47,095 bases of DNA from Planctomycetota bacterium (GTDB taxonomy: Bacteria; Planctomycetota; Brocadiia; Brocadiales; Brocadiaceae). Location of the stretch: assembly GCA_016873165.1 (NCBI GenBank), contig VGXV01000028.1, forward strand, positions 1 to 47,095, read 5' to 3'. Numbering within the stretch: the first letter of the stretch is position 1; every line of letters begins with the position of its first letter. The notes beneath the pieces were generated by a model that saw only the letters and a program-made list of their open reading frames with translations, had not been told where the DNA came from and ran no database searches. Position numbers and translations under genes: made by a program. Positions 16,685-32,251 of this stretch are shown one piece after another.

Positions 16685-16887
16685 AATAAATATGTTTGAT
16701 TCTGTCATAAAAAAATATTTATGAAACAGGCCGGAAGGTGAGCTTTTCTATTAAAAAGAGTGAAATACTGTTTTTTTAAAAATGTCAAAAAAGGAATACA
16801 GGGTAACTGTTACAACACAAAAATATTTTTTCACTTGATTTGTTTTTCCATTTGTGATAAAAGTCACAGTTAAGCATAAGACATTTT

Positions 16888-16968
16888 GAAAAAGGCAAAC
16901 CAATCGTGAGGTTGGGACGCAAAGCCATGGGTCTTCAATAAAAGGAAGAATGCCAGGTTGCCAGTTTT
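16888..16968 (+). ncRNA. Cyclic-di-GMP-I (GEMM) riboswitch, copy 1
   Basis: The core shows the class signature: GGCAAACC, a CCAATC-GTGA-GGTTGG hairpin with GNRA tetraloop (P2), then GGGACGCAAAGCC, a second hairpin CTTC...GAAG (P3), and CAGGTTGCCAG as the receptor/closing strand. GEMM RNAs bind c-di-GMP between the two hairpins. It is followed by terminators at 16969 and 17080. Bases 16928-16935 (TGGGTCTT) in P3 are fully complementary to the 5' arm of the second terminator (17081-17088), giving a ready switch between aptamer fold and antiterminator. Confidence 0.92.
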
Positions 16969-17002
16969 AAAAGGAAACACACGAGAGTTATGTTTCCTTT
17001 TT
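16969..17002 (+). terminator. Intrinsic terminator directly after GEMM copy 1
   Basis: AAAAGGAAACA (16969-16979) pairs with TGTTTCCTTTT (16991-17001) around an 11-base loop, and the 3' arm merges into a T run. It touches the aptamer's 3' end, so folding could compete with the P1 stem. Confidence 0.6.
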
Positions 17003-17079
17003 ACACGTAAGCATTGAAAAAACGTGATCGTTTACTTTGCTTATGTGTTGAGATTGAAAACCATTCTTTAGTGAAGACA

Positions 17080-17125
17080 AAAGACCCAAGGCAGATATTG
17101 AATCTGAGCTTGGGTCTTTTTTTTT
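17080..17125 (+). terminator. Strong intrinsic terminator of riboswitch module 1
   Basis: AAAGACCCAAG pairs with CTTGGGTCTTT followed by a run of nine Ts; an inner CAGAT/ATCTG extends the stem. Its 5' arm is complementary to aptamer copy 1. The 96-codon frame that spans this region (17014-17304) I regard as non-coding. Confidence 0.85.
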
Positions 17126-17342
17126 GGAATCAGAAAATGATAATCAACCAATTAATTCGTAATAATCATTTGATCAAAATTATTTTTAATATTTTTCTTA
17201 AACCTGTGCAATTTTTAACCGATTATCATCATATGTATGCAGCCAATTCGCAGTCACAAAAATATTATATTAAAGTACTTAATTATGAAGGAGAAGAAGG
17301 ATAAATAAAATGTTATAAACGGTAAAATATAAAACATCAATT

Positions 17343-17422
17343 TGAAAAAGGCAAACCAATCGTGAGGTTGGGACGCAAAGCCATGGGTCTTCAGTAAAAA
17401 GGAAGAATGCCAGGTTACCAAA
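17343..17422 (+). ncRNA. Cyclic-di-GMP-I (GEMM) riboswitch, copy 2
   Basis: The sequence is nearly identical to copy 1 across the core (GGCAAACC, GTGA tetraloop, GGGACGCAAAGCC), with small differences in the P3 loop and the end (CAGGTTACCA). Bases 17384-17392 (TGGGTCTTC) are complementary over nine bases to the 5' arm of the terminator at 17579. A small hairpin CGATAAA/TTTATCG (17429-17450) follows. The leader parts also share TATGTGTTG-GATTG (17042 and 17488), so the whole module is a duplication. Confidence 0.92.
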
Positions 17423-17578
17423 TTCAGTCGATAAAAGAGTTTATTTATCGTTCGGAGCAAATCCCAGATAGCTTTCTATGTATCAGGTATGTGTTGCGAT
17501 TGTAATAATCACAGTGCCGCAATGCTTGTTGCTGTTTGAACTTTAAATAATACATTATTTACCTTCTCATTGTGTAAC

Positions 17579-17626
17579 GAAGACCCAAGCGTCAGATACC
17601 AAATGTCTGCCTTGGGTCTTTTTTTT
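17579..17626 (+). terminator. Strong intrinsic terminator of riboswitch module 2
   Basis: GAAGACCCAAG pairs with CTTGGGTCTT followed by eight Ts; an inner TCAGA/TCTG pairing extends it. It has the same arms as the module 1 terminator. It lies about 130 bases before the HTH gene; a further short hairpin, ATCCGGA/TCCGGAT (17692-17712), lies between. Confidence 0.85.
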
Positions 17627-17755
17627 GATGAAAGGAGGTTTAAACATCTTCATGTTACATTATTAACGTAATAAATATTTTACACCGATTTATCCGGAAA
17701 TTTTCTCCGGATATATTTCGTAAACTTGATTTAAAAATTTTATGGTAGGTGAACT

Positions 17756-18256
17756 ATGGAAAAACTATGTATTGTCAAAAGGAGGAAACAAGGCTTTCTG
17801 GAAAACGATTTTAATGCGCTATCAGTATTATCAAATCATGCAGACATTCATAGCGCGGAAAATAGCACGACACAAGAACCATTGCATCAGGACAATAACG
17901 TAATTACTTTCCGGTTGACCCAGGAACAATGTGACGTAGTAAAATCGAATGAGTATATTAATTCCCTGACGAACACAACCTCCAATGATTCTTTGTTGCA
18001 CCTGCGTCAGCAAAGTGCAGGACAAATAATCTTTAAATTTTATCTCGAAAAACCGGATTCGTTAAAAATGCTTAAACCCAGACAGGTATGTCAAATGCTG
18101 CAAATAAGCAAAAGTTACTTAAAAAAACTCGTGCTAAACCAAAAAATAAAAAGTTACAAACTGGGAAAACTCAGACGTTTTTCAATGGATGATGTACTTG
18201 ATTATCTCGCTAAAAATGTAGAAATTGAAACAGAAAAAAACAAACCAACATTCTAA
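17756..18256 (+). CDS. Helix-turn-helix (excisionase/MerR-like) DNA-binding protein
   Basis: The first 100 of 166 residues are not recognisable. The C-terminal part (about 108-158) is a winged helix-turn-helix of the excisionase type: LKPRQVCQMLQISKSYLKKL, then VLNQKIKSYKLGKLRRFSMD and DVLDYL. Such domains bind DNA and in many genomes occur in small regulators. AGGTGA lies a few bases before the ATG. It is the first gene behind the tandem riboswitches, and the ATPase gene starts 14 bases after its stop, so it may regulate the pilus block. It could instead be a structural DNA-binding partner of the ExeA-like ATPase. Confidence 0.75.
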   Translation: MEKLCIVKRRKQGFLENDFNALSVLSNHADIHSAENSTTQEPLHQDNNVITFRLTQEQCDVVKSNEYINSLTNTTSNDSLLHLRQQSAGQIIFKFYLEKPDSLKMLKPRQVCQMLQISKSYLKKLVLNQKIKSYKLGKLRRFSMDDVLDYLAKNVEIETEKNKPTF

Positions 18257-18270
18257 CGGAGGTAAAAAAA

Positions 18271-19620
18271 ATGTACTACAATTACTGGAATCTTGAAAAA
18301 CCGCCTTTTGATAACGTCCCAGATCCTTCAATGTATGCGGAATGCCATACTTCCATGGAAAATGCCATTGCGGAAACGCTCTTTGCGATAGAGGAAGGCG
18401 GAGAATGCATTGCGGTTATTGTTGGAGACGTGGGGCTGGGCAAAACCATGTCTCTGAGAATGATTATAGACTCGATAGCCCAGGAAAAATATAAAATCGC
18501 CCTTATCACTAATCCAAGCACCACGTTTGTGCAGCTCATGAGAGAAATAATCGGACAGATAACCGGCAAACAATGCGAAGAAAAAAAGAAAGTCGATTTA
18601 ATAGAAATATTTAACAGATTGCTGTTTAAAACGATTGATGAGGGGAAAAAAGTTCTCATATTTATTGATGAGGCAAATGCCATTTCTCCTGCAAATCTGG
18701 AAAGTTTACGGTTACTCACCAACATGCAGGATGATAAAAGAAATTTATTTACCATGGTGCTTGCGGGGCAAATGGAGCTTGCCAGAAGACTCGAACAACC
18801 GAAATTTGCAAATCTTTTTCAGCGTATAGGAACATATAACCAAATTGAGAAAATTCCATCAGTCGAGTTGGTAAAATCCTACGTTGAAACACGATTAAAG
18901 CTTGCAGGGGGAAAAAGAAAAATTTTCAGCGATGATGCATTCAATACGATCTGGGAACATTCGGAGCATGGAATACCACGTCTTATTAACAAAATTTGCA
19001 AATTAGCTTTAAAGGCTGGTGAAACAAACGAACTGACTGAAATAAATGAAGAGGTAATACAGCAGATAGGTGAACGTTTCCGGAAAATAACCGGCCCCGC
19101 TATTCAAAAGAGAATGCCGCGAAAAAGGCCAAAGGAGGAAATGGTACCTTCTTCAGTCGAGGAACTTGAAATAGCACATGAAAAAAAATCCGTAACCCAG
19201 AAAGAAGAACACGCTGAACAAGTAGTCGAAAAGTGGAACATGAATAAACCGTCAACCGATTCGCCGGAAGATACATCTACGACAGAAGCCCCATTATCAT
19301 TCAGTGTAAACAAGCATTCTGAGCCAGCCGTAACCCATTCAATATCAGATACACTGTTTGCAGCGGCCAAAAAGAACGGCTCTGTTGCACAAGAGGAAAT
19401 AGCAGAAACAGAGATCGGGGCATGCAAACTGAGAATAATTTTGCCATCTGACTTAATGCAACAGGCGCAATCTACTACCAGAGAGCACCGGCTCAGATTG
19501 GCAGGCGCAATGGCAGCCAAAACTCTTAAAGAAAATCCACAATTGACAAAATCTCCTTATGCTGACCCGGTATCTATCTGGAGTGAAATCAGAGATCTCG
19601 TATTAAGTAAAATTGGATGA
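18271..19620 (+). CDS. ExeA/GspA-like AAA ATPase
   Basis: The 449-residue protein opens MYYNYWNLEKPPFDNVPDPS, the hallmark of the ExeA (GspA) family, followed by Walker A GDVGLGKT (52-59), Walker B VLIFIDEAN (128-136) and the sensor region MVLAGQMELARRLEQPKFAN. Family members work with peptidoglycan-binding partners to place the secretin ring of type II secretion or pili. The C-terminal 160 residues are a low-complexity Glu/Ser/Thr-rich tail plus a conserved-looking end (ACKLRIILPSDLMQQAQSTT), with no peptidoglycan-binding domain. Its Shine-Dalgarno (GGAGG) is good. The secretin it may serve is 6 kb downstream on the same strand. Confidence 0.88.
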   Translation: MYYNYWNLEKPPFDNVPDPSMYAECHTSMENAIAETLFAIEEGGECIAVIVGDVGLGKTMSLRMIIDSIAQEKYKIALITNPSTTFVQLMREIIGQITGKQCEEKKKVDLIEIFNRLLFKTIDEGKKVLIFIDEANAISPANLESLRLLTNMQDDKRNLFTMVLAGQMELARRLEQPKFANLFQRIGTYNQIEKIPSVELVKSYVETRLKLAGGKRKIFSDDAFNTIWEHSEHGIPRLINKICKLALKAGETNELTEINEEVIQQIGERFRKITGPAIQKRMPRKRPKEEMVPSSVEELEIAHEKKSVTQKEEHAEQVVEKWNMNKPSTDSPEDTSTTEAPLSFSVNKHSEPAVTHSISDTLFAAAKKNGSVAQEEIAETEIGACKLRIILPSDLMQQAQSTTREHRLRLAGAMAAKTLKENPQLTKSPYADPVSIWSEIRDLVLSKIG

Positions 19621-19669
19621 AATATTGTTGCCGGGATGTGTAAATAATTTTTGTATTCTTTTTATAGCA

Positions 19670-20563
19670 ATGAATAAAAAAACATTGGCACAAAATTGGT
19701 TTGCGGAAGGGAAAAAATATGATCACCTCCTTCCCAATTCGGAACATGCAATAGAGGCTTACAAACAAAGCATCAGAAATGATAATAACTTTGCCGATGC
19801 CTATGTAAACCTGGGATTTATTTATCTTGCCAGAAACGATTATGATGAAGCGTTAAAATATTTTCAAAAAGTAACCACATTGGAACCCGATAACGCAGAA
19901 ACGTTTAACAACCTTGGCTATGTCTATGAAAAAATGTCACGGTTAGGCAGCGCAAAACAAATGTATGAAAAGGCATTAAAGATAAACCCTGAAAATATTG
20001 AGGCAATAATTAATATTGCTAAAATATTCGAATTGGAAGGCAATTACAAAGGGGCGGTAGATCAATATAAAAAGGCGATTGATTGCAACCCTGGCGCTAT
20101 TTCCCCTCGTTTCTGCCTTGCGGTGCTCTATGATACGCATGACATGTTTGATGAAGCCATAAAAGAATATGAGATTGTTTTAGAAAGAGATCCAAATTAT
20201 GTAAAAGCATTGTTTAATCTGGGAAGTCTTTATGCGCAACTGGGTGATTGCCGGGAAACCATCCGGCTCTTGAAACGGGCTTTAGATATGAATCCACATG
20301 AGGTGACAATTCTCAATAAACTGGGAGAAATGTATCTGTCCGTTTCAAATTATTCTGCTGCTGAGGAAATCTTAAAACAATCCATTGCGTTAAACCCGTT
20401 CCAGGAGGAAGTGCATATGAGTCTTACACAAGCACAATACGCTCAATATCGTTTGAATCCCGAAGCTTCAAAAAAAGAGGAAATTCGCCGCAGAATTCAT
20501 TTTGTTCTTACTATGAATTCTGACAATAAAACGTGCCAGGAAATCTTAAACGCTTTGGAATAA
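19670..20563 (+). CDS. Tetratricopeptide-repeat protein
   Basis: From the ATG at 19670 the 297 residues consist almost entirely of TPR units in series, about seven: for example DAYVNLGFIYLARNDYDEAL, ETFNNLGYVYEKMSRLGSAK, KALFNLGSLYAQLGDCRETI. They end with a short charged tail. No signal peptide is visible, so it is either cytoplasmic or attached through partners. In pilus systems, TPR proteins such as PilF/PilW help secretin assembly, and the position between the ATPase and pilus genes fits that, but the role is inference. A TTG start at 19613 overlapping the ATPase gene would add 19 residues of no clear character. Confidence 0.8.
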   Translation: MNKKTLAQNWFAEGKKYDHLLPNSEHAIEAYKQSIRNDNNFADAYVNLGFIYLARNDYDEALKYFQKVTTLEPDNAETFNNLGYVYEKMSRLGSAKQMYEKALKINPENIEAIINIAKIFELEGNYKGAVDQYKKAIDCNPGAISPRFCLAVLYDTHDMFDEAIKEYEIVLERDPNYVKALFNLGSLYAQLGDCRETIRLLKRALDMNPHEVTILNKLGEMYLSVSNYSAAEEILKQSIALNPFQEEVHMSLTQAQYAQYRLNPEASKKEEIRRRIHFVLTMNSDNKTCQEILNALE

Positions 20564-20611
20564 ATAATAGAAAGTTTTTTATTTGAGTAAATTTAAAGAG
20601 GTCTTGTAAAA

Positions 20612-21166
20612 ATGAATTGGATTGATATAACAATATTTGCAATTTTATGCATATCGATAATTTTCGGCTTCGTTGACGGACCCATTTGCCAATTTCTGAG
20701 AATCAGCAGTTTGTTAATCTCTTTCTGTGCGGCATTTTTTTATCATGCAAGCATAAGCAACATCTTCAATAATGTTTTTTCTGTTTCATTGAATAACGTA
20801 TTGAGTTATTTCATCATATTCGGGCTTGTAGCTCTTATTACCACCATTGTTGCCGATTTTCCCAAAAACATGATCGACAATTTAAAAATCGGCAGTTGGT
20901 ACAACTTGCTTGGCGCTGTATTAGGATTGGTGAAAGGAACCATTTTCTGCGGCGCAATTATCTTCGGCATCCTTAGCTTATGCAATAAACCGGCATGCGA
21001 AGCAATTAACACCTCAAAAGTAGCAACTGCAATCGGAAGCGGAATGCAAAATATAGCATCAATCACATCAAACAGTTTTTTAAAGAAAATAAGAAAAAAC
21101 AACCTTGAAACCGAGGAAAACGAAGTGAAAAATAATACAAAAATCGCAAAAGGAACGAATTTTTAG
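20612..21166 (+). CDS. CvpA-family membrane protein
   Basis: The 184 residues show four hydrophobic segments (about 5-25, 28-46, 62-85, 100-125) and the family opening NWIDITIFAILCISIIFGFV, then DG. The third and fourth helices surround a GSWYNLLGAVLGLVKGTIFC motif typical of CvpA, a family first tied to colicin V production and now to envelope stability. The C-terminal 40 residues are charged and probably cytoplasmic. It is in line with the TPR gene 48 bases upstream and is followed by miaA after about 110 bases. Confidence 0.8.
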   Translation: MNWIDITIFAILCISIIFGFVDGPICQFLRISSLLISFCAAFFYHASISNIFNNVFSVSLNNVLSYFIIFGLVALITTIVADFPKNMIDNLKIGSWYNLLGAVLGLVKGTIFCGAIIFGILSLCNKPACEAINTSKVATAIGSGMQNIASITSNSFLKKIRKNNLETEENEVKNNTKIAKGTNF

Positions 21167-21278
21167 ACTCTACTTTATACTATTATTTTGCTTATTATAA
21201 ATCAGTTTGTATAATATGGTTACGATAAATCGTACATTTTTAAAAAATTCTTTGAATTTTGATAATAAAAAATATTAC

Positions 21279-22238
21279 ATGCCACATACAATTTGTATAC
21301 TTACCGGCCCTACGGCAAGTGGGAAGTCGGAAATTGCCGTAAAAATAGCAGAAAAAACCGGGGCGGCAATTGTTTCTGCTGATTCTATGTTAATTTACCG
21401 CGGCATGGACATCGGGACGGAAAAACCCTCCCGCGAAGTAAGAAACAAAATTCCGCATTATTTGATTGATATTAGAGACCCGTGGGAAGAATACAGCGTA
21501 GGAAATTATATAAAAGATTTTGAGGACGTTACGAATAATCTTTACGCCCAGGAAAAACCTTTCATTGTTGTGGGGGGCACAGCCCTTTATCTGAAAGCCA
21601 TTATGGAAGGTTTATTTAACGGTCCCCCTGCAAACTGGGAATACCGGAACCATCTGAAAAAAGTCGTGAGAGAGCAGGGAGCCGGTTCTTTATATGCCAT
21701 GCTTGAGGCAATCGATCCGAAAACAGCTAACAGGCTGCACACGAATGATCAAAGAAGAATCATCAGGGCGCTTGAGGTTTTTAAACAAACAGGAATCGCT
21801 ATTTCTTCTTATCAGACCCAGTTTGGGAATAAAAATCCGAACTACAACTGTATTATCGCTGCAATTGCTCATGATCGAAAGGAATTGTATAAACGCATAG
21901 AAACGCGCGTGGATAGTATGTTTTCACGGGGACTTATTGACGAAGTGCAAACGTTAATGCTTAATCCTTTGGGATTAAGCAAACAAGCCTCGCAAGCGCT
22001 TGGATACAAAGAAGTTATTGATTATCTCGAAGGAAATTATTCGCTTCAGGAGGTAATTGATGCAATCAAACAAGGCACTCGCCGGTTTGCAAAAAGACAA
22101 ATGACATGGTTTAGAAGTTTTTCTGATGTTTATTGGATCACCGCAGACGCATTTGACGATAAAGATGCATTTGCAGAAAACATCCTTGACTATTTTGCTC
22201 AAAAAAAACCCTTTATTGAAAAAACGCTGTCTTATTAA
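21279..22238 (+). CDS. miaA: tRNA dimethylallyltransferase
   Basis: The enzyme adds a dimethylallyl group to A37 of tRNAs that read codons beginning with U. From the ATG at 21279 (320 residues, normal length) it starts MPHTICILTGPTASGKSEIA with the P-loop GPTASGKS. It continues with SADSMLIYRGMDIGTEKPS, the VGGTALYLKAIMEGLFNGPP motif, NDQRRIIRALEV, and the C-terminal KRQMTWFR. In-frame upstream starts (ATG at 21216, TTG at 21207) would add 21-24 residues before the P-loop region and overlap a TATAAT-like box (21210-21215) that could be a promoter. Its presence inside the pilus block is probably positional. Confidence 0.95.
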   Translation: MPHTICILTGPTASGKSEIAVKIAEKTGAAIVSADSMLIYRGMDIGTEKPSREVRNKIPHYLIDIRDPWEEYSVGNYIKDFEDVTNNLYAQEKPFIVVGGTALYLKAIMEGLFNGPPANWEYRNHLKKVVREQGAGSLYAMLEAIDPKTANRLHTNDQRRIIRALEVFKQTGIAISSYQTQFGNKNPNYNCIIAAIAHDRKELYKRIETRVDSMFSRGLIDEVQTLMLNPLGLSKQASQALGYKEVIDYLEGNYSLQEVIDAIKQGTRRFAKRQMTWFRSFSDVYWITADAFDDKDAFAENILDYFAQKKPFIEKTLSY

Positions 22239-22288
22239 GGAAGCCGGAAAATATTCTTTATCCCTGCAGAGAAAAAAAATAGAAGAGA

Positions 22289-24025
22289 ATGCCTATGATA
22301 ACCTTTCCTAAATTACGGAAAAATCCTCATACTTGCAAATCTGTTTCACAAAAAAGGCAATCTGTCTTTAAGCAATGCGGTATAAAGACAGCATGGGGAC
22401 TGGATATTGGTGATAATGCGCTAAAAGCAGTAAAAATCACCAGAAAAAATAACGAAATAATAGTTGAGGACATCGACATTATTGAGTATCCCGCTCCTCT
22501 CTCAAATACAAAATTACTGGAATCTCATCACATCAGAAATACCATTCAAACGTTTCTTTCAAAACACACTTTTAACAAAAAAGTTGACGTCGTGGTATCC
22601 ATCCCCGGCCAGTTAGCCATGTCAAGATTCAGCACTATTCCTCCCGTTAAAAAAAGGCAATTAAGAAATCTTGTCAACTATGAAGCTCAACAGCAGATAC
22701 CATTCGACCTTAAAGACATCGTATGGGATTATCACCAATTATCAGGGCGAGTACCGAATGAAGAAGGCACCGAAATTGGTTTTTTTGCATCAAAACGGGA
22801 AACGCTTCATTCTATTGTAAGCAATATCTCTTTCCCGGAATTCAATCTGGCCAGTCTGCTGACTTCACCTTTAGCGATTTATAATTTAGTTCTTTTCGAT
22901 CAGCAAATAGAAGGCACAACCATTATTATCAATATGGAGGAAGAAAATACCGATCTGATCATTATCGACCGCTCTCATTTTTGGCTGAGAACCATTCCAT
23001 TGCGTGAGATAAACGCCGACTTCGTGAGAGAAATACAACGGTCTATGGAATATTATAAATCCTTAAGTAAAGACACAGACACGGTCCATTTCGAGAAATT
23101 TTTGCTTATCGGGAATAAATTTAATGACCCGTTGATGCAACAGACTATCAAGGACAATTTTGCCTATAAAGTAGAAACGCTAAACACCCTTAACAATATA
23201 AAAATTTCCGGCAACGTTGATCACACCTTTTTTACCAACAATCGCATTTCGTTAAACGTCGCATTGGGACTTGCGCTTCAAGGTATCGGACTGGGAAAGA
23301 CAACAGTAAATTTATTACCAAAAGAGTTATTGCGAACTGCACAAATAGCAAAATTAAAACCCTATGCAGTTGCAACCCTCGGATGTTTTGCATTATTAAT
23401 TGCCATCCAGCACTTTGGACTCAGGTTTCATATTTCCAAACTTAATAACACACGCAATCATCACCAGACAATACTGCAAAATGCGAAAAACCTTGAAAGT
23501 CAGTACAAAAAAGCAGAAAAATTCTTCAATGAAAAGAAGTCGGAACTGGAACTCATTTCCTCTATAGACTCCTCAAGATTTTTCTGGATCGAATTGATAG
23601 AAAAATTATTGACAATTATTCCCGATAATGTATCCATAAACTCTTTACAGTCCTCATGGATAGACCCTGATACTTTGAATGTTAAGGAAATTAAAGGATC
23701 CTCGATAAAAGATCGAAAGGATGATACGGTAACAAAATTTCTTCTTATAAGCATAAAAGGGGAAAGCAGAGAACCAAGCATACGTTTTATCGAAGAGCAT
23801 GTTTTGCAACCAATTAAAAATACAACGCTCTTTGATCAAAAAGTCGCTGCGTTTAAAAATGCAGAACTTGTTCCCAACTCATGCCGTCAGATATTTTCCG
23901 AAGATAATGCAACAGAGTGTATTGGCTTTGAAATACGGTGGTTTGTAAAATCACAGGAAGAAATTATTGCCGAATCTGAAAAAACAGACTCGGAGGAAGA
24001 AAAAACTAATTCCGGCGGTATGTGA
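22289..24025 (+). CDS. PilM-PilN fusion, type IV pilus-like inner-membrane platform protein
   Basis: The 578 residues comprise two parts. Residues 30-350 are an actin-like PilM/FtsA-fold domain (TAWGLDIGDNALKAVKI; VVSIPGQLAMSRFSTIPPVK; NYEAQQQIPFDLKDIVWDYH). A membrane helix follows near 365-385 (PYAVATLGCFALLIAIQHFG), then a coiled coil and a PilN-like periplasmic domain (FFWIELIEKLLTIIPDNVSI). Separate PilM and PilN normally interact at the inner membrane, so the fusion is logical; Akkermansia Amuc_1101 is described as a similar protein. The last 15 residues are acidic. It starts 50 bases after miaA with AGAAGAG before the ATG, and the next gene follows in 25 bases. Confidence 0.82.
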   Translation: MPMITFPKLRKNPHTCKSVSQKRQSVFKQCGIKTAWGLDIGDNALKAVKITRKNNEIIVEDIDIIEYPAPLSNTKLLESHHIRNTIQTFLSKHTFNKKVDVVVSIPGQLAMSRFSTIPPVKKRQLRNLVNYEAQQQIPFDLKDIVWDYHQLSGRVPNEEGTEIGFFASKRETLHSIVSNISFPEFNLASLLTSPLAIYNLVLFDQQIEGTTIIINMEEENTDLIIIDRSHFWLRTIPLREINADFVREIQRSMEYYKSLSKDTDTVHFEKFLLIGNKFNDPLMQQTIKDNFAYKVETLNTLNNIKISGNVDHTFFTNNRISLNVALGLALQGIGLGKTTVNLLPKELLRTAQIAKLKPYAVATLGCFALLIAIQHFGLRFHISKLNNTRNHHQTILQNAKNLESQYKKAEKFFNEKKSELELISSIDSSRFFWIELIEKLLTIIPDNVSINSLQSSWIDPDTLNVKEIKGSSIKDRKDDTVTKFLLISIKGESREPSIRFIEEHVLQPIKNTTLFDQKVAAFKNAELVPNSCRQIFSEDNATECIGFEIRWFVKSQEEIIAESEKTDSEEEKTNSGGM

Positions 24026-24050
24026 ATAATTAAACAAAAAGAAAACTTTT

Positions 24051-24956
24051 ATGGATTTCGGCATAGATAATAATCTCTCTGAAGAGAAAAAATATAAACC
24101 AGCACATTTTTTATCTGGTTATCGTTTTTGGATAGGCACAGGCATCATTTTTCTCGTGATGATAATTGTTTTTCTTACACTCAACTATTCGCGTTTAAAA
24201 CAACATGCCGCTATTCACAACGATCTGGAAAACCTGTCTTCCATGCTGGAAAGATATGCCTTGGCAAAAACTACTTATAACAACAGATGGATATCTGCCA
24301 AAGAGCATGAAATGAATGTATATACGGAAGAAATTGAAAAATGCCGTTCCCTGATAAATCGTATGGATAATCAACTGGAAACAATTTTCTCGAATAACCT
24401 CCCGGAAAAGGGCGCTGTGAAGATTGAGGACGAAGCGTTATGGAAACAAGAATATTTGAAAAGGGTTTCCTTATTATTAGAAAAATTAGAAAGAAGCAAC
24501 ATTGACTTTCATGAATCCGCTTTGCCATTTTATGACTGGGCTGCCAATATTCCCACATGGGAAGAAATCCTCCCTGAACAAAAAAGATTTTGGATATTGG
24601 ATGCGCTTGTTAACGTACTTCTTAAAGATGTCGGGGTAACAAAACTTGAAAAAATATCCTTCAAATCTGTTCCTAATAACAACGATACCCGCTACGAACC
24701 TCTTTATTCCACAATCCCTCTGACCATCACATTGGAGCTTGAAGCAGAACGTGTGCAATTTCTGCTGAATGAACTCCTTAAGGCCGGCATTCCTTTCGTA
24801 ATTGAAAATATAACTATTGAAAGCACATATAAAAAAACAACCACCTCCGGTTTCAAAAAAAAACCCGGCAATGGCTTTAAGAACAATAATGCTTTCACGG
24901 CAATGCCGGTTATTGATATTGTTATTGATGCATATGTGATTGACTTTAAAACATGA
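24051..24956 (+). CDS. PilO-like pilus inner-membrane protein (Amuc_1100-like position)
   Basis: The 301 residues have a short cytoplasmic tail, one membrane helix (about 25-48, FWIGTGIIFLVMIIVFLTLN), a long coiled coil (about 55-110) and a periplasmic domain with strands near 200-250 (TIPLTITLELEAERVQFLLN), the ferredoxin-like pattern of PilO/GspM. Family identity is by layout and by order: it follows the PilM-PilN fusion and precedes a PilP-like gene and a secretin. The segment IPTWEEILPEQKRFWILDAL recalls Amuc_1100-type proteins, which supports the PVC affiliation, but I could not run an alignment. Confidence 0.65.
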   Translation: MDFGIDNNLSEEKKYKPAHFLSGYRFWIGTGIIFLVMIIVFLTLNYSRLKQHAAIHNDLENLSSMLERYALAKTTYNNRWISAKEHEMNVYTEEIEKCRSLINRMDNQLETIFSNNLPEKGAVKIEDEALWKQEYLKRVSLLLEKLERSNIDFHESALPFYDWAANIPTWEEILPEQKRFWILDALVNVLLKDVGVTKLEKISFKSVPNNNDTRYEPLYSTIPLTITLELEAERVQFLLNELLKAGIPFVIENITIESTYKKTTTSGFKKKPGNGFKNNNAFTAMPVIDIVIDAYVIDFKT

Positions 24957-24980
24957 CACAGCAAAAACTCTTTCAGACCA

Positions 24981-25778
24981 ATGGATAAAAACAATTTACT
25001 ATTTAAACATAGCGGAAAATTCATTTTCGGCGTCATGGCGTGTTGTTTTCTTTACACGATGTTTCACACATTTATTTTATTGAATTCCAAAACACATAAA
25101 ATAGTGTTCTCATTAGATACATCTTCCAATGCTATTGAAAGAAAACTTTCAACAAGCAAACCGCCTGAAGATGAAATAGTATTGACAAACGCACAACAAA
25201 TGGAATTACGCTTTACTGAGCCTCCAGAACCAAATGCATTGCAGCGAGCGTACGTATTTACTACTTCAATAAAAGACAGCCGGGAAAATATTACTATCAG
25301 CGATTTGCTGAAAAAAAGACACTATCAGGACGCCTCCCGTCTGACGATAACGGAAAAAGGCGATACGGAATTCATATATAAAGGCGGCACGGGGGACCTC
25401 GCTCTGATTCAGGTAAGAAAATTATATCAGGATGTTTGGAGAGAAAACAGCTTTACTGTTTCGAAAGGAATGTCCATTGGCACAAATAAAATAGTGGGGA
25501 AAGAAACGATAAATTTTGATACGAGATGCAAACTCATGGAAATTATCCCGTTTGCTCAAAAACCAATTATTACAAAAAAACGCATTCTTCAAAAAAATGA
25601 AAAGGGAGAATTTGTCGGAACCACTGTCATGGAAGAACCGCATATGATTACATCATCCAAGATTTTATTTAAAAACAGAGATGGAGAATCATACAGCCTT
25701 TGGGCTGGAGAATTGGTAAATTTAGGGACAGAAACGGTATCAATCGTTTCTTCCGAAAATACAATAATCGACAATTAA
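24981..25778 (+). CDS. PilP/GspC-like pilus periplasmic protein (Amuc_1099-like position)
   Basis: The 265 residues start with a membrane anchor (about 12-34, GKFIFGVMACCFLYTMFHTF) and continue as an extended periplasmic region ending in a beta-rich domain (KILFKNRDGESYSLWAGELV, NLGTETVSIVSSENTIIDN). No known motif is strong. Its place between the PilO-like gene and the secretin is that of PilP (or GspC), which links the inner-membrane platform to the secretin. It starts 24 bases after the previous stop, and the secretin follows in 22. Confidence 0.6.
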   Translation: MDKNNLLFKHSGKFIFGVMACCFLYTMFHTFILLNSKTHKIVFSLDTSSNAIERKLSTSKPPEDEIVLTNAQQMELRFTEPPEPNALQRAYVFTTSIKDSRENITISDLLKKRHYQDASRLTITEKGDTEFIYKGGTGDLALIQVRKLYQDVWRENSFTVSKGMSIGTNKIVGKETINFDTRCKLMEIIPFAQKPIITKKRILQKNEKGEFVGTTVMEEPHMITSSKILFKNRDGESYSLWAGELVNLGTETVSIVSSENTIIDN

Positions 25779-25800
25779 ATTTATGTTTTAGGAGGTTATC

Positions 25801-28095
25801 ATGAAAAGTGTCTTTGGTTATACTACTTTTGTTCTTCTGCTCTTTTTATCCTTTGAAACAAATCAAACATGGTCGCAGAATAAAGATATTGCCGAAAATC
25901 ATACATCGCTCACCGATAATTACTATCTTAAATCGGCAAAAAAATACCTGGAATCAAATGATTATCAAAAGGCTATCAATGAACTAACGCTTGCTATTTT
26001 ATTAGAACCGGGCAACACTGAAGCGCAAAGACTAAAAAATGAGGCCATTTCTCACCTCAATGGAAGTACCGTTTTATCAGAAACGAAAGAAACAGATGCC
26101 CCAAGCCCATCAAAATCAAATGACATATCAACATTAATAAAAAATGCACGTACCGCGGCAGAAAACGATCAATATGATGATGCCATAGAAATACTGGAAC
26201 ACGCGCTCAAAATAGATCCGGATAATAAAAAAGTTCTGTATTTTAAAGAAAAAATAATTGAAATAAAAAACAAACAGGAGGCAACTACCGTAAACGCCGC
26301 CAATACCGCAGAAAATAAACTTAATGAAATAGAACCACAGAATGAAGAATCGTTATACCTTAAAGAAAAAATAAATGAAACAAAACACAAATGGAATTAT
26401 GAAAACCTTAAAACAATTTATTCTCAGGAAAAACTACGAAACAAAGAATATCTCAAAGAAGCGTCTATCCCTTACCAGGATATTGTCCGTTTCCCCGACC
26501 AAAAACAGTGGAACAATATTGCAAACCGTACACTCCCTGAATTATCCGAAGCCGTAAAGGAAAATAAAACCAGGACTGAGCTTTTAAGGACAATACCAAA
26601 CCCCACAGAAATACAATTTTCTCAAAAAATCGAAGATGCCTTAAATACCATCATTTCTTTTGAATTTATTGATGCTTCTTTACAGGATGTTATTGCCTTC
26701 ATTAGAGAAAAAACAAATATAAATATGGTGCTTGACGCAAACGCGGGAAACGTTCCCATCACATTAAAACTCAACGAAGTATCGGTAAGAACCGCATTCA
26801 CCTATCTGCTTCCGAAAGGATATGAGTACCTCGTCGAAGGGGATTTATTACATATATACAAACAAAAAATGGAACTGAGGGTTTACGATGTGAGAGATAT
26901 ATTAATTAATCTCGACGATAAAAAACCTCTTGAATTTGATATCACTGCGGCAACTTCCAGCCAGTTGGGCATAACAAAAGCAGAACCTGCGAAAGTAAGA
27001 GACCCTTCCGAACGGGTGCTGAATCTGATAGAAATGATTGTCACCACCATCGAGCCATCTTCATGGTCTGCAAATGTTGGAATCATAGGAACCTCCGATA
27101 CGGGAGAACAAAGAACCATAAGAACAAGCGGGCAGGGTGAAGGAAGTATTACTGCACGAGCGGGACAGCCCGGCGACCTCGTTGTAGTAAATACAAAACA
27201 CATTCATAAACAGATAGAGGATGTGCTGGCTTCACTCAGGACATCGCAGGATTTACAAGTAAACATCGAAGCCCGTTTTATCACCGTATCGGATCAATTC
27301 TTGGAAGATATTGGAACCAATATCAACAGTTTTTTTAGTGATAAGATATCCATGGATACCGGCGCGGCTGACATTGCAGGAGATTTAGGCAGCGGCATGG
27401 ATCTCAGTTTTACCATATTCGGAAGTTCCGGAATAAAGGGTTTTTTGAAAGCAGTGCAGGAAAGCAAAGGTTCCGAAGTCCTTACTTCACCACGGATAAC
27501 GCTTTCTAACACACAACGCGGAAATATTGCCGTTCTGCAAACCAGAAATTATATACAAAGCACAACCGTTGAAGACGGTATTGTCACGCCTGTTATTGGC
27601 ACAGTGCCGGAAGGCACAACGTTCGACGTAAGGCCTATTGTGAGTGCCGACAGAAAATTTGTTTACCTGGAAGTAACTCCTTCTGTCTTTGATATTGAAG
27701 AGATTGAATCGTTTACTTTTAGTGGATTATCAGAAGATGTAAATGTTGGAGGCGGAGATGGCACCACCTACATACCTCCTGAACAAACGGTACAACTACC
27801 AAGGGTAAACGTTTCTCAGGTCTCGGTAACCGTGTGTGTCCCTGATAAAGGCACTCTTATGATTGGCGGATTAGGTTCTCTTAATAATGAAGATGCGACA
27901 AGCGGCGTTCCTGTATTATCCAAAATACCGATTATTAAAAAATTATTTACCCGTGATCAGAAAACCAGGAATAAATCGAATCTTATTATATTGCTTAAAC
28001 CAACAATTATCATTAAAGAAGAACAGGAAAAAATTCTCAGGCTAACAAATGAAAAATCCTATATACCGCCGAAACTTAATCCGAAAAAACAATAA
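25801..28095 (+). CDS. Secretin with N-terminal TPRs, PilQ/GspD family
   Basis: The product forms the outer-membrane channel for a pilus or type II system. It has a signal peptide (MKSVFGYTTFVLLLFLSFET, cleaved about 25) and TPR-like repeats around 40-170 (YYLKSAKKYLESNDYQKAIN; AENDQYDDAIEILEHALKID). It then has an STN/secretin N domain (FEFIDASLQDVIAFIREKTN, about 285) and the secretin core with TSPRITLSNTQRGNIAVLQT and VPDKGTLMIGGLGSLNNEDA, then SGVPVLSKIPIIKKLF near 690-715, the conserved beta-lip signature. At 764 residues it is full length. AGGAGG precedes the ATG. TPRs at the N-terminus are typical of the PVC-type secretin Amuc_1098. Confidence 0.92.
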   Translation: MKSVFGYTTFVLLLFLSFETNQTWSQNKDIAENHTSLTDNYYLKSAKKYLESNDYQKAINELTLAILLEPGNTEAQRLKNEAISHLNGSTVLSETKETDAPSPSKSNDISTLIKNARTAAENDQYDDAIEILEHALKIDPDNKKVLYFKEKIIEIKNKQEATTVNAANTAENKLNEIEPQNEESLYLKEKINETKHKWNYENLKTIYSQEKLRNKEYLKEASIPYQDIVRFPDQKQWNNIANRTLPELSEAVKENKTRTELLRTIPNPTEIQFSQKIEDALNTIISFEFIDASLQDVIAFIREKTNINMVLDANAGNVPITLKLNEVSVRTAFTYLLPKGYEYLVEGDLLHIYKQKMELRVYDVRDILINLDDKKPLEFDITAATSSQLGITKAEPAKVRDPSERVLNLIEMIVTTIEPSSWSANVGIIGTSDTGEQRTIRTSGQGEGSITARAGQPGDLVVVNTKHIHKQIEDVLASLRTSQDLQVNIEARFITVSDQFLEDIGTNINSFFSDKISMDTGAADIAGDLGSGMDLSFTIFGSSGIKGFLKAVQESKGSEVLTSPRITLSNTQRGNIAVLQTRNYIQSTTVEDGIVTPVIGTVPEGTTFDVRPIVSADRKFVYLEVTPSVFDIEEIESFTFSGLSEDVNVGGGDGTTYIPPEQTVQLPRVNVSQVSVTVCVPDKGTLMIGGLGSLNNEDATSGVPVLSKIPIIKKLFTRDQKTRNKSNLIILLKPTIIIKEEQEKILRLTNEKSYIPPKLNPKKQ

Positions 28096-28116
28096 TCATG
28101 CGCATTATCAAATAAC

Positions 28117-28725
28117 ATGCAAAACCAAAAAGGATTTTCTGTCGTAGAACTGGTCGTTGTTGTGGCTATTATGGGAATTACCGCAGGAACGGTCATTCCC
28201 GTCTATTACAATATGAAACCGCAGATCAGGCTGAATGGTGCGGTAAGGCAACTAATGGGTGATTTGATGTGGGCAAGAATGAAGGCGATATCTGAGAATA
28301 ATAACTATGTTATTGCTTTTGGCGAAGCTGGCAAAATATTAACTAATAATACTTATTATATTTACGATGATAATGATAATAACTTTAGTTCTGTGGGTAT
28401 AGAAGCGGAGGAATTAGCAAAAAAAATTGTTATTTCAGACGATTATAAAGATATGGGATATGGCTATGCTTCCGGTATTAAAAAGACAGACAACACAACT
28501 ACCCTGACGGGGGATGCCGTGACATTTAGTTCCGGAGGGGCATCAAAGCCAATCTGGTTTAATTTCAAGCCCGATGGTTCTCCCAATATTACAGGAACAA
28601 TTTATCTGCTCCCTGACGAGGATGAAGCATCCGGAAGGAAAGACAGGTCACGCGCTCTATCCGTAAATCAAACAGGACGTATAAAGTCATGGCGTTATGA
28701 TATGGGAACAAATCTATGGGAATAA
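28117..28725 (+). CDS. Prepilin-like protein (GspH/FimT type)
   Basis: A class III signal is visible: leader MQNQKG, then cleavage before FSVVELVVVVAIMGITAGTV, with Glu at +5 as prepilin peptidase requires. The 202-residue protein has a globular head with Gly/Asn/Asp-rich loops (YDDNDNNFSS, SGGASKPIWFNFKPDGSP) and ends ALSVNQTGRIKSWRYD, the GspH/FimT pattern of minor pseudopilins that start fibre assembly. The next prepilin gene starts before its stop (10-base overlap), so the minor pilins form one operon. Confidence 0.88.
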   Translation: MQNQKGFSVVELVVVVAIMGITAGTVIPVYYNMKPQIRLNGAVRQLMGDLMWARMKAISENNNYVIAFGEAGKILTNNTYYIYDDNDNNFSSVGIEAEELAKKIVISDDYKDMGYGYASGIKKTDNTTTLTGDAVTFSSGGASKPIWFNFKPDGSPNITGTIYLLPDEDEASGRKDRSRALSVNQTGRIKSWRYDMGTNLWE

Positions 28726-29129
28726 ACGGCCATAAGAAAAATAAATACTACGTAAGAATTTTGGAATTGCACAATAATTGTGGCTTTTCTTTAGTCGAAA
28801 TAATGCTTTCCATCGCAATTATTGCCATTGGTTTGTTTGCAGTCATGAGTGTGCTTATCATTATAATAAAAGGCAATACCCATAGCAACAGATCGACTGC
28901 GGCTATGACGTTAGCACAAGATAGATTGGAAGATTTCGGGAATATGGATTATGACGATATCGCCGGCACATACACCGTGTATAATGATCCCGACTATTAC
29001 CTGCTGGCGACTGTTGCCAATAACACTCCTGTTACAAACACAAAAACAATCACAATTAATGTTTACTGGAATCCGGCGACAAGTACGTCATTTCACAAAG
29101 TTCGGTTGAATACCATCATCGCACAATAG
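28716..29129 (+). CDS. Minor prepilin, PilV-like
   Basis: The 137 residues have a long 23-residue leader ending NNCG, then FSLVEIMLSIAIIAIGLFAV (Glu at +5). A short head with TAAMTLAQDRLEDFGNMDYD follows, the PilV/GspI signature of a helix running into a small domain. It overlaps the preceding gene by ten bases. A later start would shorten the leader, but no better ATG precedes the cleavage site. It is probably a minor subunit at the tip. Confidence 0.82.
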   Translation: MGINGHKKNKYYVRILELHNNCGFSLVEIMLSIAIIAIGLFAVMSVLIIIIKGNTHSNRSTAAMTLAQDRLEDFGNMDYDDIAGTYTVYNDPDYYLLATVANNTPVTNTKTITINVYWNPATSTSFHKVRLNTIIAQ

Positions 29130-29138
29130 GAATCCCTT

Positions 29139-29714
29139 ATGATTTTTTCCCATACTAACAATGAACAGGGTTTTACCTTAATCGAACTGATTGTCGGCCT
29201 TGTTCTCACGGTTATTATTTTAGGGATAGCAATTAAATTGCTCATCTTTCAACGAAAAACATTTAATGTTCAGGAACAAGTGAACGAGATGCATCAATAT
29301 ATCCGATCCTCCATGGATGCAATGAGCAAGGAAGCCAGGATGGCAGGATATAATCCAACAGACGCAGGTTTTAACGGAATAAGCGTTGCCCAAACGGGAA
29401 CACTTACTTTTCGCATAGATTTCGATGGCAGCGGCACAATCGGAGGCACAGAAACCATTACCTATGCATACGATCAGGCAAATAGTCAGATCGACAGAAC
29501 CGCAGGCGCCGGAGCGCAGTCATTTGCGGAAAATATCAAGAATCTCAGCTTTTCATATTATGATAGCGATGGGGCAACTACTGCTACGCTTTCTGATATC
29601 CGGAAAATAAAAATCACTATAACGGGGAGAACCAAAAATATTGATCCAACGTATGGGGATTATAAATATGCAACCTTAACGTCTTTTGTTACTCCTAAAA
29701 ATCTTGATTACTAA
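29139..29714 (+). CDS. Minor prepilin, PilW-like
   Basis: The leader MIFSHTNNEQG is followed by FTLIELIVGLVLTVIILGIA (Glu at +5). The 191-residue protein then has RSSMDAMSKEARMAGYNPTD, the motif of PilW/GspJ subunits (SMD.MSKEARMAGY), and a head of strands with IRKIKITITGRTKN. It follows the PilV-like gene by nine bases. Confidence 0.88.
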   Translation: MIFSHTNNEQGFTLIELIVGLVLTVIILGIAIKLLIFQRKTFNVQEQVNEMHQYIRSSMDAMSKEARMAGYNPTDAGFNGISVAQTGTLTFRIDFDGSGTIGGTETITYAYDQANSQIDRTAGAGAQSFAENIKNLSFSYYDSDGATTATLSDIRKIKITITGRTKNIDPTYGDYKYATLTSFVTPKNLDY

Positions 29715-29743
29715 AATACATACAAATACCCGATACAAAGCTT

Positions 29744-31051
29744 ATGAATACAAAACAGAGATGTAATTCCCCATCATTAGTTTCTTACTTTAAAAACGAA
29801 GATGGTGTCATATTTATTGCTATCCTCATATTAATAGCCATATTAGCAATAATAGGAACTGTTGCGGCTATTACCACTACTACCGACCTTAAAATCAGCA
29901 CTAATTACAAAACAGGTGTGCAGGCATTTTATGCTGCGGAAGCAGGTATTCATGAAGCAAGAGAACGGCTTCGTAACCCCTCTACCAATAATTACTATGC
30001 CGGAGATCCTGATACAAATAACGGATCATGGTCTGCATATATTTTAACCGATGGTTCGTGGACTACCGCCAGCGATCCTGATTTTAATGCCGGTTATTAC
30101 AATTATATTCCCACTGCAACCCAAACCACCAATACAAATATCGTTGCCAACAGTCTTCAGTCAAACATTTCATATTGGGTAAATATCAGACATAAAAAAG
30201 AATCCGATCTATTTGCTGCTGAGGCGTACACCGATAATGGCAGTGGTTCAGATGATATTATTTATTATGGATACATTACGAGTTCTTCCACAACGTTAGA
30301 ACAATTTACAACAAATAGTCCCGATCTTTCCAGATGTGCGCCAATAGAAATTATTCGATCTTATGGAATAAACAGAAATAGTACTAAAGGGATTAATGTT
30401 CAGGGAAAGAAAACACCTGGGCCACCTATCGTAGCAGCAGTTTATGGGAATAGTGTTACCATTGGCGGCAGCAGTGTAACTGTTGTTGGGAATGATAATA
30501 CCTGCGGACACCTTAAAGGCAGTTCCGATATTGTTGCAGTGGGTTATGATACTTCGTATACGCAGAACGGCAATCCGACTCTTACCTCTACGGTGTCTCA
30601 AACAATGGATGTAGGCACAATAAATTGTACAACGTATGTAGATGCTTTGGAACCATCCAAGACAGTTACCTTGACAACAGATAAGACTAACTACACCGTC
30701 GGCAACAGTTCAAATTACGAAATTGTGTACTGCGATGCTACGCAATTAACTTCTCCAAGTGATGGAAAATTAGACATGCAAAATACAACAGGATATGGCA
30801 CATTAATTGTGAAAGGCAATGTTTCCTTTAGTGGCAACTTAGACTGGTATGGACTTATAATAGCAACCGGAAATGTGGAATTTACAGGTGGTGGGGCTAA
30901 TGATAAAAATGTGCACGGAGCCGTTTTGGGCAGTAATGTTACACAATTGCAGGGAAGCGTAAATATTCAATACGATTCGTGTGAAATTGAAAATGCAAAT
31001 GCCAGCTACAGATATGTTATCTTTCGATGGAAAGATAATAGTTTTGATTAG
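29744..31051 (+). CDS. PilX-like pilus-assembly protein
   Basis: The 435 residues begin with a leader ending KNEDG, then VIFIAILILIAILAIIGTVA, a hydrophobic helix without the +5 glutamate (as in PilX/GspK). Next comes TTTTDLKISTNYKTGVQAFY followed by AAEAGIHEARERL, the classic PilX_N/PulK motif. The large head has low-complexity Ser/Thr/Asn/Gly repeats with a right-handed beta-like end (NVSFSGNLDWYGLIIATGNV, EFTGGGANDKNVHGAVLGSN) of the kind seen in DUF7305/adhesive domains. It closes the minor pilin cluster. No terminator is obvious after it; an intergenic repeat follows. Confidence 0.85.
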   Translation: MNTKQRCNSPSLVSYFKNEDGVIFIAILILIAILAIIGTVAAITTTTDLKISTNYKTGVQAFYAAEAGIHEARERLRNPSTNNYYAGDPDTNNGSWSAYILTDGSWTTASDPDFNAGYYNYIPTATQTTNTNIVANSLQSNISYWVNIRHKKESDLFAAEAYTDNGSGSDDIIYYGYITSSSTTLEQFTTNSPDLSRCAPIEIIRSYGINRNSTKGINVQGKKTPGPPIVAAVYGNSVTIGGSSVTVVGNDNTCGHLKGSSDIVAVGYDTSYTQNGNPTLTSTVSQTMDVGTINCTTYVDALEPSKTVTLTTDKTNYTVGNSSNYEIVYCDATQLTSPSDGKLDMQNTTGYGTLIVKGNVSFSGNLDWYGLIIATGNVEFTGGGANDKNVHGAVLGSNVTQLQGSVNIQYDSCEIENANASYRYVIFRWKDNSFD

Positions 31052-31900: not shown

Positions 31901-31930
31901 ATTAATATCGCAATCAATGTATAAATAAAA

Positions 31931-31988
31931 AAGCCCTGCTACGAAACATACATAAACTTTACACAGTTTTTGTTCGGTAGCAGGGCTT
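31931..31988 (-). terminator. Intrinsic terminator between GEMM copy 3 and the amidase
   Basis: On the minus strand AAGCCCTGCTAC (31988-31977) pairs with GTAGCAGGGCTT (31942-31931) around a 34-base loop, followed by the T-rich tract TTTTATTTATA. It stands about 70 bases downstream of the aptamer and 30 bases before the preferred ATG, where a riboswitch-gated terminator would be expected. Confidence 0.75.
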
Positions 31989-32057
31989 TCTTTATTGTTT
32001 AGCTTAGCATTCTCGCGAAATTCCTCTTTCTGCTGATTTTTCGCTTTATACCTTGAT

Positions 32058-32124
32058 TGCTGCTTAGCCAAGCAAAAGATCCTTTGCTTTGCGTCCCAGT
32101 CTCACGACTGGTTTGCCTTTTTCG
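32058..32124 (-). ncRNA. Cyclic-di-GMP-I (GEMM) riboswitch, copy 3, controlling the amidase
   Basis: The minus strand reads GGCAAACC, the hairpin CCAGTC-GTGA-GACTGG, GGGACGCAAAGC, a second hairpin (GCAAAGGATCTTTTGC) and a closing strand. The core is the same as copies 1 and 2, while P2 shows compensatory changes (AATC/GGTT becoming AGTC/GACT), which confirms the structure. P3 differs completely from the other copies, so this is not a recent duplicate. Confidence 0.9.
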
Positions 32125-32251
32125 TTATTTACTTTAAAAAAGAGACAACCTAAATATGTTTACATTATAAAATCATTCATTTTTTTGTCAATAATTAATT
32201 TGCTTCAAATAAATACCCAAGGAAAAAGGTCAAAAACCAATGTTATTGCCT

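Follow-up and report, generated by a model that had tools for sequence, protein, structure and literature searches.

The leader of a presumed pilus operon in this Planctomycetota bacterium, presumably an anammox organism, most likely holds two complete riboswitches for c-di-GMP in series, each working as a transcriptional OFF switch by kinetic strand exchange. The window is the whole 47,095-nucleotide contig of a member of the Brocadiaceae that was analysed. The element is real and conserved, and the mechanism, as read from the sequence and from folding models, is well supported.

Both aptamers were recovered by cmscan. Aptamer 1 (16885..16966, + strand) scored 68.9 bits with RF01051 and 67.3 bits with RF03167, and aptamer 2 (17341..17423, + strand) scored 70.3 and 67.6 bits; both are above the gathering thresholds of the two families (35 and 59 bits, respectively). 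Their starts are 456 bases apart, in agreement with the initial annotation, which had placed two GEMM aptamers about 455 bases from each other, and the RF01051 covariance search that it proposed matches both. The top Rfam family for both was RF03167, the c-di-GMP-I-GGC variant of the c-di-GMP-I clan. Membership in this variant was nevertheless rejected: according to the Rfam consensus, from which the criterion was read, a G is required after GACGC (consensus GACGCGAAgCc, against GACGCAAAGCC in the window), and these RNAs carry an A, so that GACGCGAAG of the variant is replaced by GACGCAAAG. The cGAMP riboswitches (GEMM-Ib) were rejected as well, as they require an A at position 20, where both aptamers have a G; this is the position that steers selectivity among cyclic dinucleotides (PMC9262584). 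The ligand-contact residues G20, A47 and C92, which in our own mapping of the numbering correspond to AGGCAAACC, GACGCAAAG and GGTT[G/A]CC in the alignment, are retained in both aptamers, and for this reason both the cGAMP and the GGC-variant assignments are disfavoured. We therefore treat both as GEMM-I.

In module 1, the 5' strand of the aptamer helix P3 (GCC-A-TGGGTCTT, 16924..16935, + strand), designated A1 and taken as the putative switching strand, is complementary to T1 (AAGACCCAAGGC, 17081..17092, + strand), the 5' arm of terminator 1. The P3 3' strand is GAAGAATGCC (16945..16954, + strand). The other terminator arm, T2 (GCTTGGGTCTT), and its U-run occupy 17108..17125 (+ strand), with a hairpin of -22 to -24 kcal/mol. 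Two spacer hairpins, AGGAAACA/TGTTTCCT (16972..16998, + strand) and ACACGTAAGC/GCTTATGTGT (17003..17048, + strand), are kept in the orthologues of the congeneric genome G002. They are followed by a segment, CATTCTTTAGTGAAGAC (17062..17078, + strand), that resembles both P3 arms. In the predicted unliganded minimum-free-energy fold, CATTCTT of this segment is paired to the 3' strand of P3, and the segment contributes to unfolding that helix; it is conserved in one G002 orthologue (L053) and partly in another (L055). In L055 and L044 (G002 C17), the loop of the conserved GGAAACA/TGTTTCC hairpin in the module 1 spacer is enlarged by an insertion of some 100-120 bases; the insertion resembles a dispersed repeat, and the switch parts are intact.

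In module 2, A1 is GCCATGGGTCTTC (17380..17392, + strand), of which TGGGTCTTC (17384-17392) forms nine contiguous pairs with T1 (GAAGACCCA, 17579..17587, + strand); T2 (CCTTGGGTCTT) with its U-run lies at 17610..17626 (+ strand), and the hairpin amounts to about -23 kcal/mol. Each aptamer is thus followed by an intrinsic terminator, with a loop of over 8 bases. The initial annotation had correctly located the complementary sites, with TGGGTCTT at 16928 and 17384, and AAGACCCA at 17081 and 17580. Its contiguous lengths of 8 and 9 bases were also right, but module 1 had been understated: a GCC:GGC extension continues the duplex, so that GCC-A-TGGGTCTT faces AAGACCCA-A-GGC in 11 pairs with one A.A mismatch. 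Directly 3' of terminator 2, at 17631-17638, there is a Shine-Dalgarno-like sequence (AAAGGAGG) without a long reading frame; in L001 and L049, a similar one, AAAGGAGGTT, follows the terminator.

A candidate promoter, TTGATT-N17-TAAAAG (context TGTGATAAAA), lies ahead of module 1 at 16835..16863 (+ strand). It was recognised from the sequence and by comparison with the leaders of five other aptamers of the same genome, four of type A and one of type B (types defined below), all of which have similar sites; it was absent from the output of a generic promoter/terminator scan, which also passed over both terminators with their loops of more than 8 bases. The same leader comparison revealed no promoter-like counterpart at the same distance from module 2, an arrangement that fits two serial gates on one transcript. 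Two complete modules of the same class within one leader, with a promoter-like sequence before the first only, also correspond to what is expected of a pseudo-cooperative tandem.

The mechanism that we propose involves four strands, namely the two strands of P3, T1 and T2. P3 is compatible with T1:T2 and A1:T1 excludes both, so that a ligand-stabilised aptamer would favour termination. Without ligand, free A1 would capture T1 as soon as it is synthesised, about 157 bases downstream in module 1 and 200 bases in module 2; the terminator would then come too late, and the pilus operon would be transcribed. With c-di-GMP, the P2/P3 aptamer would be held, A1 would stay in P3, T1 would pair with T2 and transcription would stop. 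A transcript starting ahead of module 1 would pass both gates in turn, which may make the response steeper. That c-di-GMP is the cellular ligand is plausible, since with 40 GGDEF-domain matches in the genome the molecule is expected in this organism. This is in essence the plain model of the initial annotation (P3 paired with the terminator arm and genes on without ligand, genes off with c-di-GMP), and the comparative and folding evidence favours it.

An alternative-fold calculation, as the initial annotation had suggested, favoured the duplex between P3 and the terminator arm in five of the six loci of this genome before T2 is made. For a transcript ending at T1, the A1-T1 pairing probability in these five was 0.96-1.0, and it fell to 0.01-0.19 when the 13-base arm (T1) was scrambled; with the transcript ending at a longer T1, T1 pairing gained 4.5-10.6 kcal/mol in the unliganded ensemble. 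The exception was locus C14 (probability 0.03), probably because of its very stable P3; its G001 orthologue likewise does not favour A1:T1 in the folding model. Full-length folds favoured the terminator in all six loci, in L004 and L006 alongside P2/P3. As the terminator prevails once T2 is present, the antiterminator would have to act kinetically. In the folds and pair probabilities, the antiterminator excludes the aptamer and the terminator is compatible with it, as in a transcriptional OFF switch. The long A1-to-T1 spacers, up to about 300 bases, demand fast long-range capture, and this counts against the model.

The complementarity between P3 and the terminator is not due to chance. The 4.05-Mb genome has seven GEMM-I matches, six of which carry GCCATGGGTCTTC; this 13-mer was found only once more elsewhere in the genome. 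The seventh aptamer has a different P3 and a different terminator. The pattern GACCCAN{8,36}TGGGTYTTTT had seven matches genome-wide, none of them outside the six canonical GEMM loci (one of the seven is the reverse reading of the module 1 palindrome), and the reversed control pattern had none in the whole genome. As a further control, 106 terminators away from aptamers were examined in the fetched loci. None had a complementarity of at least 7 bases to the P3 strand region, apart from antisense GEMM readings, a single 7-base match within a gene and one orphan terminator whose module is gone. Chance was rejected on the exclusivity of the terminator pattern, on this control and on the scrambling of T1.

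For a wider comparison, 148 distinct aptamer-like matches were gathered, mostly from Brocadiales. They include two types: type A aptamers (GCCATGGGTCT..., P2 AATCGTGAGGTT) have a distal terminator, while in type B (AAAGTAAAGGGTCTT, P2 CCTGAGTGATCAG) the 5' arm of the terminator is the aptamer's own 3' end (AGCCTTACTGCC). An AAGACCC-type element is present downstream of 31 of the 36 type A (TGGGTCT-type) aptamers with a distal terminator, the five misses being two from Paenibacillus, L115 and L045 (minus one pair) and the second module of L114 (a G.U variant). It is found behind none of 14 type A aptamers without terminator, and behind only 3 of 72 type B aptamers, although most of these carry GGGTCTT too. 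The element is not special to this locus; it is the standard platform of one of the two Brocadiales aptamer types. Seven aptamers, mostly in Brocadia-type genomes (L020, L022, L027, L065, L067, L077 and L083), have the same P3 with no downstream terminator found, sometimes two of them within about 120 bases; their platform is perhaps translational.

Relatives that keep both aptamer and terminator were checked for a loss of complementarity, as the initial annotation advised, and it turned out to be kept: in 31 of 33 parsed type A loci, from three Kuenenia species, G004, G010, G039, G056 and G058, A1 and T1 form an uninterrupted run of 7 pairs or more. One pair is gone from L115 and from L045, which retain the terminator stem, and L006 has a perfect duplex of 12 bp. 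Three modules outside the parsed set (L005, L058 and the second one of L114) were inspected by eye; they have a 6-base GACCCA core plus GGC, or the G.U variant. Some of the aptamers in an outgroup, consisting of a Clostridiales metagenome-assembled genome and two Paenibacillus genomes, carry the identical P3 TGGGTCTTC; at most 5 bases of complementarity were seen there between the P3 5' strand and the terminators found, and a general property of GEMM-I was rejected on these grounds.

Could the shared terminator sequence simply be a legacy of whole-module duplication that does not pair functionally with P3? The modules are paralogous, A1 is nearly invariant in any case, and the co-variation between P3 and the terminator arm, for which the initial annotation had proposed a comparison of related genomes, exists but is weak: the A1:T1 covariation score was 0.078 against 0.062 for shuffled pairings, a value reached by 6 of 500 shuffles, and the level of pairs changed on both sides was reached by 37 of 500. 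The terminator stem covaries more strongly (0.192). The weak A1:T1 signal is explained by the near invariance of the P3 strand, and strong covariation as a proof of the pairing was not obtained. Duplication is nonetheless highly improbable as the whole explanation. Between non-orthologous loci the 10-nt T1 core scored 0.83 against 0.40 when shuffled, whereas its surroundings have diverged to background (upstream 40 bases, 0.40 against 0.38; loop, 0.42 against 0.35; downstream flank, 0.40 against 0.41), which argues for a constraint on T1 itself. The G of T1 facing the C of A1 is preserved in loci where T2 has a U, so that it is not required by the terminator stem. Finally, variants outside Kuenenia are still complementary (CTTGGGTCTTT/AAAGACCCAAG in L100, TTTGGGTCTT/AAGACCCAAA in L105), and L102 and L032 keep a CATGGG/CCCATG pairing although their terminator stems are imperfect.

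The other alternatives concern how, in which direction and for which ligand the gates work. With the P3 5' pairing as a side contact, an OFF switch could operate through the aptamer 3' end (the P3 3' strand and the ligand-pairing C), as does Cd1, whose ligand binding is lost when the antiterminator pairs G147-C87 and C148-G86 (PMC9262584). The spacer segment of module 1 does pair with the P3 3' strand as well, but the six terminators showed no common stretch complementary to the aptamer 3' end, and A1:T1 is the feature that is kept; with the P3 5' strand as the conserved partner, a platform of the Cd1 type was rejected, and we hold this reading to be very unlikely. Much the same low standing as that of duplication goes to the view that the gates are ON switches, as the second aptamer type of this order appears to be, or else fixed attenuators insensitive to ligand, as Bc1 of B. 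thuringiensis appears to be in vivo: this c-di-GMP-I riboswitch, which has two terminators and a long platform, seemed stuck in the OFF state whatever the c-di-GMP level (PMC11218506). In the present modules, however, the terminator lies clear of the aptamer, and the alternative pairing that is conserved disrupts both. A ligand other than c-di-GMP, either cGAMP or that of the variant class to which the best Rfam family belongs, has the slimmest chance, given the A found where the variant consensus has G and the G20 kept in our mapping of positions. Two c-di-GMP OFF switches in series is thus the reading that we retain.

The first gene past the gates encodes an HTH_17-domain protein (17756..18256, + strand; syntenic in G002 and G010), followed by an AAA_22 (ExeA-like) ATPase (18271..19620, + strand). 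By Pfam, the remainder of the presumed operon (19613..31051, + strand) comprises TPR, CvpA, MiaA, PilM_2, two unassigned, secretin, GspH, two N_methyl and PilX_N proteins. This gene order is kept in G002 and largely in G001 and G010. In G002, ComEC, the tandem and the gene order recur, with the aptamers 581 bases apart. In G001 (L126), a transposase-like frame of 444 codons separates the two modules, and the HTH_17 and ExeA genes are missing there. In G010, which belongs to another genus, one module is kept; upstream of it an orphan AAGACCC terminator without recognisable aptamer (L129:2604-2650) is probably the decayed first gate. A second tandem in G002 (L128, C5) has the same two spacer types and a decayed third aptamer, with no pilus operon in the fetched stretch.

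The window contains a third GEMM-I riboswitch, on the - strand (31927-32127), before an Amidase_2 gene; its aptamer of 155 bases scored 58 bits with RF01051, and it has an orthologue in G001 (L052). The 5' arm of its terminator is the aptamer 3' end (AGCCCTGCTACC), so that, from its sequence, it should be an ON switch, of sign opposite to the tandem. In a small, hand-picked sample, the further type A targets included pilin-like (DUF1559, N_methyl), PilX_N and GspH proteins, a histidine kinase and an HDOD protein; among the type B targets were Polysacc_synt_2, glycosyltransferase, TPS-secretion and Big_5 proteins and a LuxR-type regulator. The sample is consistent with high c-di-GMP turning pili off and matrix on. 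We tentatively suggest, at somewhat less than even chances, that Brocadiales use one aptamer class with an OFF platform for genes of pili and pseudopilins and an ON one for polysaccharide and adhesin-like genes, as an RNA switch between motile and sessile states under a single signal, and that the tandem gates at the pilus operon could antiterminate each other, since either A1 matches either T1. Two opposite platforms for one aptamer class in the same order, and even in one window, form a natural series for the evolution of riboswitch sign. Anammox bacteria grow in granules and are hard to manipulate genetically; the proposed wiring offers a testable mechanism coupling their pilus gene expression to c-di-GMP.

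In the openly licensed literature, we found neither a description of this platform nor GEMM riboswitches in anammox bacteria. Tandems are known, as the initial annotation had noted, and they are common: 347 c-di-GMP-I doublets and 12 triplets are on record, and in B. thuringiensis a triplet responds in a more digital manner (PMC9481103). Those tandems likewise place several aptamers of the same class in series; the present one differs from them in its lineage, its platform and the genes that it targets. In C. difficile, class I riboswitches act as OFF switches (PMC11477304). Among them Cd1, before the flgB operon of Clostridioides difficile, is also a transcriptional GEMM-I OFF switch in which aptamer and terminator can exist together (PMC9262584), but it builds its antiterminator with C87 and G86 of the aptamer 3' end and governs flagella, whereas here the P3 5' strand is used and pilus genes are the target. 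The pilM cGAMP riboswitch of Geobacter metallireducens is of GEMM-I type and precedes pilus genes as well; with a terminator 5' arm made from the aptamer 3' end (PMC9262584), it shares the ON design of Brocadiales type B, and differs from the tandem in its opposite sign, its ligand and the overlap of its terminator with the aptamer 3' end. According to a review, the switching sequence most commonly lies within the first helix (PMC10907184). With the c-di-GMP-I riboswitches at large (RF01051, clan CL00126) the present modules share the aptamer, the key ligand residues and the association with surface and pilus genes, and they differ in the platform, which would rely on capture of a distal terminator arm by the 5' strand of P3. 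We therefore regard them as a variant of a known system: the sensor, the tandems and GEMM OFF switches are known, and the proposed wiring of P3 to a distal terminator, kept across Brocadiales, is new as far as the openly licensed literature goes.
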